Below, in pieces: positions 3,100-34,934 of a DNA stretch of 49,532 bases. The notes under the pieces were generated by a model, which saw only the letters and a program-made list of their open reading frames with translations, was not told where the DNA came from and did no database searches. Origin of the DNA: Gallionellaceae bacterium (GTDB lineage: Bacteria > Pseudomonadota > Gammaproteobacteria > Burkholderiales > Gallionellaceae); NCBI GenBank assembly GCA_006218055.1, contig VBWD01000016.1:1-49532 (forward strand), given 5' to 3'. The translations under genes were made by a program, and so were the position numbers. How positions within the stretch are numbered: the first letter of the stretch is position 1; each line of letters opens with the position of its first letter.

Positions 3100-3165
3100 G
3101 AATTTTCTCTTGGGTTTGGTGTGCGCATTATAATGTGGGCATTCCACGGCACTCCTTACTTCGTC

Positions 3166-7718: not shown

Positions 7719-7773
7719 AAAAGCTACCCTTTCTTCACTTCGTCAAAGATATGAAAAGCTCGGGTAGCTTTTC
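7719..7773. repeat. Alternative-hairpin repeat across the cbbO stop codon
   Basis: The heptamer AAAAGCT occurs at 7719-7725 and 7754-7760, with its complement at 7766-7772. Two mutually exclusive stems are therefore possible: 7719-7729 with 7762-7772 (11 bp), or 7753-7760 with 7766-7773 (8 bp, loop of 5). The element spans the end of cbbO and the cbbO-fbp gap. No T-tract follows, so a role as terminator or attenuator is only inferred. Confidence 0.4.
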
Positions 7774-9999
7774 AGGCAATTGCGCCACGTTGTCCACGAT
7801 GGTGTATTGCTTGCCAAAGATATCTGAAACGTACTCGTCTGCCTTGGGGTCAAGGTTGATGCAATAACTATAGATGCCTTGCTGATCCAACTCTTTTACC
7901 GCCTGCCGCGCATCTTCAATCAAGATTCGACCATCTTTGCTGTCGATATCCGCTGGCTCACCATCGGTGAGGATGAGCATCAATTTTTTGTCGGCCTGTT
8001 GCTTTTCCAAGTAGTGCGCGGCATGGCGCATCGCTGCACCCATACGCGTGGAATAACTGGCTTCCATCGCCGCCAGTCGACCCTTCACTTCATCGTCCCA
8101 CTTTTCGCTGTAACCCTTGATATGCAGGTAACGTACATCGTGCCGCGTGTTGGAATGGAAGCCTGCGATGGCGAACGGGTCGCCTAATTTTTCCACCGCC
8201 CATCCCAAGATGGTCACCGCTTCCTGGCTCAGTTCGAGAATGGTCTGCTGGCTTCCTGCCGCCTTCTCATTCAACGATTCCGACAGGTCGAGCAGCAGCA
8301 TCACTGCGATGTTGCGCCCGTCATTGCGATGACCCATGTTGATGCGCGTATCAGGTTGTGCGCCGCTCTTGTAGTCGATGAGGGAACGGATGGCGACATC
8401 CAGATCCAATTCGCTACCCTCTTCCTGATAACGGATACGCACCTTGTCTTGCGGCTTGAGTAGGTCGAGCATCTTCTTCAAACGCTTGGCCAACCCCGCG
8501 TGCTTCTCCAGCAGCTTGTCGATGTCTGCCGGGTTACCTTGCGGGTGCAGTCCTTCGTACACGCTGACCCAGTCGGGGCGGTAGTTCTGGCTGTTGTAAT
8601 CCCACTCGTGGTAGTGGCGCGGTGGCAAACCCTTCAATTCTTCGCCCGGTTCGATCTTGCGCTGCTCATCGAACGCCTCTTCCTCATCGCCCTCTTCTAT
8701 GAACTTCCACATCTGGCGGTTATCGTCACGGTAGTCGATGACCGTGTCTTTGAAGTGCGTCTTGGGCAAGTTATCGCTCTGCAAGCGTGTGCGCGCGACA
8801 AAGGTGATGGCTAACTCAGAGATGTCCTGAGTGCTGGAATCACTTTGCTGCATCGATTCGTGGAAGCGGCGTGCGAAGTCGATGATGTTCGGGTTCTTGT
8901 AAGGATGGTGCGGGTCAAGGATGGCGCGCGACAACATCGTTAAACGATGACGCACGCTCGATTCTTTAGTCACATCACACGCGTCTTCCGCAGGAGCGGG
9001 GTGCAATGCAGCAAAGATGCGGCGCAAGCCAGGATATTCACGCATCGCCAGATGCTCGACGCGGCAATCTTCCAAGAACTCAGCGGCCATACGCTGAAAT
9101 GGACTCATGTTGTCCGCGATGATGGCCTTGGTCCAACGTCGATGGCCGATGATATGCGCGAGCGTGGCACGGTAGCGGTCGATGCCCAAAACGCCGTGGG
9201 CATCATCGTAAACGTCCGGCAGGCGGATGCCCAATTTGTCGTAGTACGGGATGGGTTTGCGCAGCTCATCGAAGGCGCTCGAATAGGGAATGAGCATGTC
9301 TTCGTCTTGCCACAGCCCGCGCATGTACATGCTCAACTTGCGGTCGTTATCCACCAGCAGCGTACCGTGGCGCTCGCGTTGCAACACAGCTTTGCTGTCT
9401 GCCGAATGCAAGCTGAAATATTCGACTTGTCGTTCAGGGTGATCATCGTAATAACGCACACCGTAGTCCGCCCAGATCTTCAATCCCGCTAAAGACAGCT
9501 GACTCAACAGCACTGGGATCTGCTTGAACATCTCGGGCAGACCGGGGCTGGGGAAAGTTTGATGGATGCCGTGCACAGAGCCGGTGGTGCGCTCCATCAG
9601 ATCCAAGGCGATGGAAAGGTAATCACTGATCTGGTCGCGCGTCGGCAAGCGACGTGCCGTGACTGGAAGTGATTGCAAGAACGGAACGATCGCTTTGCTG
9701 TTGGGTGATTTCCACATCTTGCGGATGAACAGCATGATGTCGATCAGCGTATCTTCACCAATCGACTTGGCGACTCCCGGCCACTCTTCCAGAAAGATCA
9801 AGATGGGTTCTGCACCGCGTCCCATCTTACCCAAGAAACGCGCGTGCTCAATGTAGGAATCTATCCCATCGTTGGACAGCTTTGCGAAGGCTTCTTGCAT
9901 ACACTCCGGAAACACTTCCGCCACGCGCGGGAAGCCGCAATCCAGATTCTTCCAATAGGATTGCAGTGGAGCCGGGATGTCGACCACTGGGGTTGCCAT
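7735..9999 (-). CDS. cbbO: RuBisCO-activase adaptor CbbO (von Willebrand factor A domain)
   Basis: A 754-residue protein. The first 550 residues are a long CbbO-type region ending in an acidic stretch (EEGDEEEAFDEQ). The C-terminal VWA domain has a complete metal-ion-dependent adhesion site: DLSES at 571-575, STRMG near 650, and LTDGEPAD near 680. In characterised systems CbbO binds RuBisCO through its VWA domain and, with the CbbQ ring, removes inhibitory sugar phosphates from the active site. It begins 3 bp after the cbbQ stop, so the two are co-translated. Length and motifs are normal, so the activase pair looks intact even though the RuBisCO it serves carries a deletion. Confidence 0.95.
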   Translation of the reverse strand: MATPVVDIPAPLQSYWKNLDCGFPRVAEVFPECMQEAFAKLSNDGIDSYIEHARFLGKMGRGAEPILIFLEEWPGVAKSIGEDTLIDIMLFIRKMWKSPNSKAIVPFLQSLPVTARRLPTRDQISDYLSIALDLMERTTGSVHGIHQTFPSPGLPEMFKQIPVLLSQLSLAGLKIWADYGVRYYDDHPERQVEYFSLHSADSKAVLQRERHGTLLVDNDRKLSMYMRGLWQDEDMLIPYSSAFDELRKPIPYYDKLGIRLPDVYDDAHGVLGIDRYRATLAHIIGHRRWTKAIIADNMSPFQRMAAEFLEDCRVEHLAMREYPGLRRIFAALHPAPAEDACDVTKESSVRHRLTMLSRAILDPHHPYKNPNIIDFARRFHESMQQSDSSTQDISELAITFVARTRLQSDNLPKTHFKDTVIDYRDDNRQMWKFIEEGDEEEAFDEQRKIEPGEELKGLPPRHYHEWDYNSQNYRPDWVSVYEGLHPQGNPADIDKLLEKHAGLAKRLKKMLDLLKPQDKVRIRYQEEGSELDLDVAIRSLIDYKSGAQPDTRINMGHRNDGRNIAVMLLLDLSESLNEKAAGSQQTILELSQEAVTILGWAVEKLGDPFAIAGFHSNTRHDVRYLHIKGYSEKWDDEVKGRLAAMEASYSTRMGAAMRHAAHYLEKQQADKKLMLILTDGEPADIDSKDGRILIEDARQAVKELDQQGIYSYCINLDPKADEYVSDIFGKQYTIVDNVAQLPEKLPELFISLTK

Positions 10000-10002
10000 A
10001 AT

Positions 10003-10806
10003 TTATGCGAAGGTCGCAGCGATGGCGTGATCCAATGTGTCGCGGATGTCCGCATCGTCAGTGATTGGACGCACCAAAGCCATACGGCAAGCCGCTTTGG
10101 ATTCGACACCGCCTTTGATCAGCGTGGCCGCGTACACCAACAGTCGAGTGGAGATGCCTTCGTCCAAGCCGTGACCTTTGAGGTTACGCGCTGCTTGACC
10201 GATCTTCACCAGCTTGGCTGCCAACTCCACTTCGATACCCGCTTCTTTGCTCAAGATTTGCGCTTCAACTTTCGCTTCTGGATAGTCAAACTCAAATGCA
10301 GTGAAACGTTGTTTGGTGGATTGCTTCAGATCCTTCATCAGGCTTTGATAGCCTGGGTTATACGAGATCACCAATTGGAAATCGGGATGTGCTGCTATCA
10401 GCTCGCCCTTCTTGTCCAATGGCAAAGTGCGACGGTGGTCGGTCAGCGGGTGAATCACCACGGTGGTGTCTTGACGTGCCTCGACGATCTCGTCGAGATA
10501 GCAAATAGCGCCGATGCGCGCTGCCGTGGTGAGCGGACCATCCAACCAACGTGTGCCATTGGCATCCAGCAGATAGCGCCCTACGAGGTCGCTTGCCGTC
10601 ATGTCTTCGTTACAAGCCACGGTGATGAGCGGTTTGTTCAGCTTCCACGCCATGTATTCGATGAAGCGCGATTTTCCGCAACCAGTCGGGCCTTTCACCA
10701 TCACAGGCAGACGCGCAGCGTAAGCTGCTTCATACAGCGTCACTTCGTCGCCTTGCGCTTGATAGAAAGGTTCTTTGCCGACTTTGTATTGATCTTTATT
10801 TGTCAT
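10003..10806 (-). CDS. cbbQ: RuBisCO activase AAA+ ATPase CbbQ
   Basis: A 267-residue MoxR-type AAA+ ATPase. Walker A is GPTGCGKS at 39-46, Walker B ICYLDE at 101-106, and a sensor-like SYNPGYQ lies near the centre. CbbQ forms hexamers that, with CbbO, reactivate inhibited RuBisCO. The ATG at 10806 (MTNKDQYK) is chosen over the much longer open frame because AGGAGT lies eight bases upstream and CbbQ proteins are about 265-270 residues. It lies downstream of cbbM, from which it is separated by a hairpin terminator, so its expression probably depends on read-through or an internal promoter. Confidence 0.95.
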   Translation of the reverse strand: MTNKDQYKVGKEPFYQAQGDEVTLYEAAYAARLPVMVKGPTGCGKSRFIEYMAWKLNKPLITVACNEDMTASDLVGRYLLDANGTRWLDGPLTTAARIGAICYLDEIVEARQDTTVVIHPLTDHRRTLPLDKKGELIAAHPDFQLVISYNPGYQSLMKDLKQSTKQRFTAFEFDYPEAKVEAQILSKEAGIEVELAAKLVKIGQAARNLKGHGLDEGISTRLLVYAATLIKGGVESKAACRMALVRPITDDADIRDTLDHAIAATFA

Positions 10807-10919: not shown

Positions 10920-12239
10920 TTACTTGTGTACGCCCAGTTTCTCGCGCCAGCCTGGGAATATCTTGTCCGCGTCTTTCGGGAAAGACTCGAAAGCACGTGC
11001 GAACTCTTTGTGCTCTTTCGCGTACTGGATTGGATCTGCACCTTCTTTCCAGCAATCGTAAGCTTGACGCAGAGAAATCGCGCCAGCAGCTGGGGAGTCG
11101 ATGTGACCGTAAGAACCGCCGCCTGCTGTGTTGATCACGTTGCCGTGGCCCAAGTTTTCGAAGAAGCCTGGCAAACGCAATGCGTTCATACCACCGGAGA
11201 TGATTGGTGTTGTTGGCTTCATGCCGTACCACTCTTGATGGAAGAACGGACCCATGCAGCTGTCGCGCTCGATCATGTAAGCGATGATACGGTCGTCAGC
11301 GCCACCTTCCATCTTGCCGAAGAACGCTGTGTAGCCGCGCTTGGAAGAAGGCGATGTAACCGCACCGTGACCTGCGCGATGGTAGTGCAGGTACTGGCCG
11401 GCGTATTGACGACGAGCCGTTGTAACCATACCAGGACCGCCAACATAACCGTCAACCAAGAATGCCAACTTGTCAGCATCTGGGCCAAATGTCTCAAGTG
11501 CGAAGTCCGCACGAGCACACATTTCGTAGTGGTCGTCAGCTGTGATGTTCATGGAGAACAACTTTGCATCGCCTGTTTCGTCTTGAGCACGCTTCATTGA
11601 GTCATAAACTAGTGGCAATACTTTCTTGATTGGACAGAAAGTTTGGTTACCTTGTGGCTCGTCGTTCTTGATGAAGTCGCCGCCCAACCAGAATTGGTAA
11701 GCTGCTTTAGCGAATGGCTCAGGACGCAGACCCAGCTTAGGCTTGATGATGGTGCCGGAGATGTAACCGCCATCTACAACTGGACGACCCAAGATGCGCC
11801 ACAGGTTGGAGATATCTACTGCTGGACCGTCGAACAATTGCAACATACGGGGTGGAACCCAGAAGTCTTGCATTTGCAGGTCAGCTACGTCGCCCATACC
11901 TTGGTTGTTACCAATAGCAAGAGTCAAGAACGATACGATCATCGCGCGACCGTCAGTCACATTGCGATCGAACAATTCATTAGGGTAAGCCACCTTCATG
12001 ATGCCCTTGGCTTCGTCGATGAAGTAAACCAGTGCGTCAACGCCCTTGGTGAAATCATCGGTAGTAGAAACTTCAACGTTAGTACCGGTTGAAGATTCAG
12101 CTGCAATGTGCGCAGCCACTTCCAAATAACCGTAACCAGCCATTGGGTGCATAGTGTAAGCAACCAGAATGTGCTTACCGTTCTTGATCAGCTCTGCTTC
12201 ATCCAAGCTTAGATCTGCATAACGATTTGATTGATCCAT
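10920..12239 (-). CDS. cbbM: Form II RuBisCO large subunit with internal 20-codon deletion
   Basis: A 439-residue form II ribulose-1,5-bisphosphate carboxylase. Up to residue 306 its numbering matches the well-known Rhodospirillum rubrum enzyme: Lys166 in GTIIKPK, the carbamylated Lys191 with Asp193 and Glu194 in KNDEP, and His287-Arg288 in HYHRAGHG. After YTAF (306) the sequence jumps directly to FGKMEG, whose Lys309 equals Lys329 of R. rubrum. Exactly 20 residues (R. rubrum 307-326) are absent, covering the end of helix 5, barrel strand 6 with His321, and half of loop 6. Without them a (beta/alpha)8 barrel should not close, so catalysis is doubtful. The start has AGGAGA upstream. Corrected length would be 459, the usual value for the family. 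Confidence 0.93.
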
Positions 12240-12367: not shown

Positions 12368-13258
12368 ATGCTGCCATTGAGTTTGCGACAACTTCAGGTC
12401 TCCGTATCTATGCAGATCAAGCAGGCCGAACAGACTATCGGAATGCCCTTGTTCGAGCAAGTAGGAAAAAAGCTATTTCTGACCGAAGCAGGCCGCGAGA
12501 TGCTGCACTACGCTCGCTCGGTGGTGCTACTGATGCAGGAAATGGAATCGGTGTTTGACGAGATGAAGGGGTTGGAGCATGGTCACCTGAACATCTCGGT
12601 GGTCAGTACCGCCAACTATTTCATGCCGCAATTGTTAGCCAAGTTCATCCAAGCACATCCGAAAATTAAGGTGAGCCTATCGGTCGCCAACCGTGATGCC
12701 GTGCTCAAGCAACTTGCCGAGAACATGACAGACCTCGCCATCATGGGGCAGCCCCCTGAAGGCACCGACATGGTCGCAGACCCTTTCTTAGAGAACCCGT
12801 TGGTAGTGATCGCTGCACCTGCACACCCTCTCGCGCGTGCAAGCAATATCCAGCCGCGACAGTTGGCGAATGAGACGTTCCTGTTGCGCGAACAAGGCTC
12901 GGGAACACGCGGTGTGGTCGAACGTTTCTTTACAAGCCATCGGCTCCCCTTGCCCGCTCATATGTCGATGGATACGAACGAGGCCATCAAGCAATCGGTT
13001 CAGGCTGGAATGGGTATCGGCATCATCTCCAGCCACGGCATCGAAATGGAGCTAGAGACCAAGCGTTTAGTCGTGCTTGATGTTGACCAATTCCCTATCG
13101 TGCGCCATTGGTACATCGTGCATCGCAAAGATAAACGCGCGTCTGTCGCTGCACAAGAGTTCGCCCGTTTCCTGTCGAAAGAATCGCAAAACAGGGTAAG
13201 CAGCCTCACAGCAGACGCATCGAAAAACTCCCCTGTTGTCACAAAAGTGGCTAAATGA
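12368..13258 (+). CDS. cbbR: LysR-family regulator CbbR with deleted helix-turn-helix
   Basis: A 296-residue LysR-type protein divergent from cbbM, the classic position of CbbR, the activator of CO2-fixation operons. The effector domain is complete (HGHLNISVVSTANYFMPQLL, the GTDMVADPF region, LREQGSGTRG, the GMGIGIISSHGIE segment). The N-terminus reads SLRQLQV and then SVSMQIKQ. Family members carry about 22 residues between these (the end of helix 1, the 'SFTRAAE.L' helix and the turn to the recognition helix 'LTQPAVS'). The junction is at 12400/12401, in frame. The remaining linker helix (FEQVGKKLFLTEAGRE) is normal. As written the protein should dimerise and sense ligand but not bind DNA properly. 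Restored length would be about 318, normal for CbbR. Confidence 0.85.
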   Translation: MLPLSLRQLQVSVSMQIKQAEQTIGMPLFEQVGKKLFLTEAGREMLHYARSVVLLMQEMESVFDEMKGLEHGHLNISVVSTANYFMPQLLAKFIQAHPKIKVSLSVANRDAVLKQLAENMTDLAIMGQPPEGTDMVADPFLENPLVVIAAPAHPLARASNIQPRQLANETFLLREQGSGTRGVVERFFTSHRLPLPAHMSMDTNEAIKQSVQAGMGIGIISSHGIEMELETKRLVVLDVDQFPIVRHWYIVHRKDKRASVAAQEFARFLSKESQNRVSSLTADASKNSPVVTKVAK

Positions 13259-19929: not shown

Positions 19930-22891
<2,962 letters not shown>

Positions 22892-23017
22892 TTCCAATCT
22901 CCTCCGAAGAAACTTACTGAATTGAGCACAGGTTTATTGCATTTAAGATCGTTAATTATGCCTCAACGACGGGGGTTAGGGCAACCCGAGCATACCCCTA
23001 GACTTTAGTCTGGAACC

Positions 23018-34552: not shown

Positions 34553-34864
34553 ACGCTTCGGCCAGAGCTTTTCTCTTTTCGCCAGCGCACTCGCTCCGAA
34601 ATACCCATTTTACAAACGCCTGATCTGCCTATTACCCGCTAGATGCGCTAGCTTTGATCATTAGGCCGGTTACACGTCTTTTTCTGGCTTTGCCACCAAA
34701 CCCCCTCAGGTGTTCCGTGAAATGCAGCCCATGCGCGTTTTAATGAGTTTGGCTTGTAAGCCTTGTATTTATTAGGGTTGTGGCTAAGCCCGGTCAGGCG
34801 CGCTCTGAATTTTGTTGTTTTTGCTTGGCGAAATTTGATCTAAATCCTATTCCTTCACCAAAAT
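34553..34864. other. Gene-free stretch between topA and gyrB terminators
   Basis: About 310 bp with no convincing gene. On the minus strand a frame stays open from 34839 to 34648 (63 codons) with no ATG, GTG or TTG. It encodes a Lys- and Trp-rich peptide (PNKYKAYKPNSLKRAW...GVWWQSQKKT). After two in-frame stops the same frame is open again for about 24 codons (MGISERVRWRKEKSSGR). This could be a decayed small gene, a dispersed repeat or chance. Transcription from either side should be stopped by the two flanking terminators. Confidence 0.45.
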
Positions 34865-34900
34865 AAAAAGGCGGCAATCAGTAATGATTGCCGCCTTTTT
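34865..34900 (-). terminator. Intrinsic terminator after gyrB
   Basis: A perfect 16-bp stem AAAAAGGCGGCAATCA / TGATTGCCGCCTTTTT around GTAA. It lies 34 bp after the gyrB stop on the minus strand, with T-tracts on both sides, so it is bidirectional. Confidence 0.9.
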
Positions 34901-34934
34901 ATTTCAACAATTAATTCAATCTAATTGAATTGAA

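Follow-up and report, generated by a model that had tools for sequence, protein, structure and literature searches.

Among the natural relatives of RuBisCO are the Rubisco-like proteins of form IV, which lack some of the catalytic residues; for RuBisCO itself we assume catalytic roles for K166, K191, H287 and K329 (R. rubrum numbering). The protein considered here is the product of cbbM (10920..12239, minus strand; 439 residues as assembled), encoded in a window of 49,532 nucleotides that is a whole contig of G000, a draft genome of a Gallionellaceae bacterium (1.66 Mb in 100 contigs, 71% complete) which, judging from its incompleteness and its relatives, is probably metagenome-derived. Profile matches and relatives place the protein in form II, those relatives that carry a name including Gallionella, Sideroxydans and Sideroxyarcus. 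In contrast to a form IV protein it scored far above its own equivalog cut-off, with 825.4 bits against the curated 489 bits of NF010002 (PRK13475), presumably the model for form II, whereas two models for 2,3-diketo-5-methylthiopentyl-1-phosphate enolase gave 41.9 and 27.3 bits against cut-offs of 409 and 513.6 bits. The best-scoring solved chain was that of PDB 5c2c ("Form II RubisCO"), to which the query aligns in two pieces, residues 1-307 and 304-439, with no other gaps; 5c2c has 20 residues that the window protein lacks.

The initial annotation had described a form II RuBisCO lacking exactly 20 residues in a frame that stays open, and this description was accurate. The cbbM frame reads through the junction (11321..11322, minus strand), and alignment with the genomes G027, G025 and G014 found exactly 60 nt missing after window base 11321, equivalent to residues 307-326 of the 459-residue relatives. 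On both sides of this point the amino-acid identity to G027 and G025 is 97-98%. K166, K191 and H287 carry identical numbers in the window protein and in the intact protein of G027, while the loop-6 lysine is K309 in the former and K329 in the latter, which is the unshifted and then 20-shifted numbering that had been claimed; all four catalytic residues are therefore present, the last at index 309. His321 had been placed in the missing block, and H321 of G027 does fall within 307-326. The block presumably comprises barrel strand 6 and half of loop 6, and with it absent the assembled letters hold neither His321 nor a complete strand 6 and loop 6. Pfam PF00016 reflects the same hole, matching the window protein over profile positions 2-159 and again over 179-299, but not in the interval. 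By eye, any direct repeat at the flanks of the 60-nt hole extends over a few bases at most, and a repeat-mediated deletion was set aside on that ground.

The annotation had also reasoned that related isolates in which the gene is whole at this locus would point to an assembly error, and counterparts of this kind were found: G027, G025, G014 and G028, which belong to the same genus but to other species, have cbbM without the loss and share the gene order. The neighbourhood of a LysR-type regulator, cbbQ and cbbO is that of the relatives, colinear with G027, G025 and G014, and the suggested alignment with 459-residue cbbM proteins showed the relatives to hold the block 307-326 that the window protein lacks. 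In a sample of 150 genomes of the family, where matches were listed down to weak ones of ~35% identity, all 106 form II matches spanning the site were without net loss, and the loss occurred in G000 alone among the matches listed. These 106, tallied by eye and judged from spans rather than individual alignments, comprise 103 one-piece matches of residues 1-459 (102 genomes, G524 having two) and three partial genes that span the site (G534, G458 and G016); outside the tally are G000, G464 (split), G510, and G020 and G003 (too short). Among 112 loci (not unique, some present twice), 104 had the normal 22-residue spacer, three were the window itself, and the five that escaped the text pattern likewise hold the block. 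The junction pattern, sought in 399 genomes of the order of which an uncounted number carry cbbM and many may lack it, was found in G000 only, so that no other carrier of the deletion emerged from this search. A second complete cbbM elsewhere in the genome, which the annotation had proposed to look for, was not found in the G000 assembly at its 71% completeness, and the pattern for the absent motif had 0 matches there.

The cbbM of G464 is divided between the start of contig C110 and the end of contig C214. One piece stops at residue 314, within the block, and the other begins directly behind the block, at 327; this stretch is thus a point at which a second assembly broke as well. As a separate observation, the form II RuBisCO of G016, a genome rated 100% complete, lies in pieces 1-192 and 189-459 on the contigs C40 and C65.

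Compared with G027, G025 and G014, the window has three clean losses (60, 66 and ~95 nt) within 22 kb. The 66 nt are absent from the LysR-type regulator gene cbbR (12368..13258, plus strand; 296 residues as assembled, its name inferred from position) at 12403/12404, within the DNA-binding domain; because of this the LysR helix-turn-helix profile of 60 positions is matched only from position 27, whereas the G027 protein matches 1-60. At the third junction (20931..20934, minus strand), 89-97 nt are absent relative to the three relatives, which takes away the end of the transketolase gene, stop codon included, together with the gap leader. As a result the tkt frame (20864..22897, minus strand; assigned by Pfam) continues past the lost stop into gap (19930..20931, minus strand; 333 residues), presumably glyceraldehyde-3-phosphate dehydrogenase, whose coding sequence is present but whose leader is lost. 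Over the 22-kb stretch there was no other gap of at least 9 nt that all three relatives fill with at least 9 nt; the gaps that come closest to this criterion are one of 12 nt filled by G014 only and one of 187 nt at 2318 filled by G027, partly by G014 and not by G025. The cbbQ (10003..10806, minus strand) and cbbO (7735..9999, minus strand; 754 residues) genes, whose names come from the initial annotation, had been called intact; they are colinear with the relatives and show no large indel against G027 and G025, to which we add that cbbR and tkt/gap carry the same kind of lesion as cbbM.

Some other features of the contig can be noted in their own right. Positions 813-1397 and 1739-2323, and likewise 1519-1716 and 2332-2529, are pairs of neighbouring copies ~89-90% identical, where G027 (C9) and G014 (C13) have one copy in the aligned stretch; the pairs are either a diverged tandem duplication or a misjoin. 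At 3156 the window has 124 nt extra that are absent at that place from G027, G025 and G014, and the 44-nt stretch 34861-34904 is a 95% match to the reverse complement of itself.

Losses of the same kind recur elsewhere in the assembly. Of 56 G000 contigs fetched in whole or in part (that of the window included), 30 (43,667 bp) were all N and were excluded, and the remaining 26 contigs or parts (520,585 bp) were compared with 61 contigs or parts of G027 (1.03 Mb), giving 124,809 bp aligned between the two. Under a strict rule, by which G000 matches abut within 4 nt where G027 has 59-101 nt between them, there were eight losses in G000 and none in the reverse direction for G027 (two-sided sign test p 0.008, the rule having been set post hoc). 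Their lengths are 60, 66, 95, 88, 68, 64, 75 and 101 nt, of which three of eight are multiples of three, as expected by chance; the losses thus fall irrespective of frame, and the open frame of cbbM is the expected one-in-three outcome. With a 10-nt boundary tolerance the counts were nine in G000 and three in G027. Within matches, gaps of 20-42 nt numbered five in G000 and four in G027, so ordinary indels occur in either direction.

For five of the eight losses G027 was the sole genome compared, with Pfam profiles added for those in rpsL and ppc. The 88-nt loss lies in rpsL; S12 is matched just once in the assembly, from profile position 23 (of 110) onwards, with positions 1-22 missing, and it is an essential ribosomal protein. 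In ppc a loss of 68 nt shifts the frame, so that the matches to profile positions 1-415 and 439-703 meet at the junction in different frames. The 101-nt loss is in a frame that we read as iscS and the 75-nt loss in what is presumably a putative transporter permease, the fifth further loss on other contigs being the one of 64 nt. The lesion seen in cbbM is therefore found elsewhere in this assembly regardless of frame, essential genes included.

Taken on the sequence comparisons, the 60-nt hole in cbbM is almost certainly a local assembly error of the draft genome. With like short losses in other genes, rpsL among them, the missing 20 residues do not describe a strange natural enzyme, and the organism's own cbbM probably has the His321/loop-6 block even though the assembled letters lack it. 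Of the two readings offered in the initial annotation, that of an assembly loss is borne out by the eight like losses in the assembly, one of them in rpsL, while the natural lesioned RuBisCO has nothing beyond the assembled letters in its favour. We suggest that the sequences flanking a short stretch that failed to assemble were abutted directly and the stretch dropped with no Ns inserted, most likely when contigs were scaffolded with a gap judged zero or negative; the breaks would be located where the assembly graph broke. Passages of PMC7111523 describe gaps and local assembly errors as a limit on metagenome-assembled genomes, state that through both of them protein-coding sequences that are incomplete or wrong spread in public databases, and recognise a local assembly error by a region lacking perfect read support. 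The cases in those passages are of unsupported sequence and of Ns inserted despite overlap, in contrast to the joins in G000, where 60-100 nt would have been dropped with no Ns.

The N runs of G000 bear on how well its gaps were sized. Six runs of 6-98 nt occur in the contigs compared, and some may be masking instead of traces of the scaffolder. Where one run has 46 N, G027 has 107 nt, which shows that the size of a gap can be underestimated by ~60 nt. However, the three of the six runs that were checked against relatives gave a mixed result: a run of 6 N stands against 8 nt in both G025 and G014, and one of 10 N against 4 nt in G027, 18 in G025 and 3 in G014. These two agree with the relatives within 2-8 nt net, and gap sizes were therefore not always underestimated.

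A true loss of residues 307-326 would mean either that a lineage on its way out of autotrophy has a very young pseudogene or that the cell keeps a non-catalytic protein, and we consider such a loss very improbable. For a lineage recently losing autotrophy, in which real deletions would have inactivated cbbM, cbbR and tkt/gap and left RuBisCO a fresh pseudogene, it counts that three lesions of one contig sit in Calvin-cycle genes. There is also some signal in the codons. Against G027, cbbM differs over 440 codons by 74 synonymous and eight non-synonymous changes (dN 0.015, dS 0.32), and the resulting dN/dS of ~0.05 indicates that the gene is under strong purifying selection, with which a long-dead gene does not fit. 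Private amino-acid changes, however, number six on the window branch and one in each of the two relatives G027 and G025; relative to private codon differences this is 6/46 for the window against 2/72 for the two relatives (Fisher p 0.055), a slight excess that gives a weak hint of relaxation and runs counter to the reading of an assembly loss. Against a departure from autotrophy stand the low dN/dS itself, a hole in cbbM that is accompanied by neither a stop codon nor a small frameshift, and the same kind of lesion beyond this contig, in rpsL, ppc and further genes; with the S12 gene broken as well, we regard this explanation as very unlikely.

A genuine variant of RuBisCO, expressed although strand 6 and half of loop 6 are gone and possibly serving a non-catalytic role, would account for the open frame and the retention of K166, K191, H287 and the loop-6 lysine, but random losses keep the frame one time in three, the assembly has seven further losses of the same kind, none of the 106 spanning matches in the 150-genome family sample shares the loss (among the matches listed), and a search of 399 genomes of the order, a good many of them perhaps without cbbM, turned up the junction pattern in G000 only; such a variant seems to us scarcely credible. 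Draft genomes from communities are composites of populations, and on this general ground an assembler could have chosen a minority strain with a true deletion while most cells have the gene intact. The same accident would then have had to repeat independently in rpsL, ppc, cbbR and others, which leaves a mixture of strains an extremely remote prospect. A local assembly error accordingly remains our reading of the hole.

A true loss would give a RuBisCO that lacks a strand of its core barrel. Taken as an artefact, the case serves as a warning: one random short loss in three keeps the frame and so mimics protein remodelling, and what helps most is to test whether essential genes of unrelated function show such a lesion elsewhere in that assembly. 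As for the organism, the cell most probably carries an ordinary form II RuBisCO of 459 residues.
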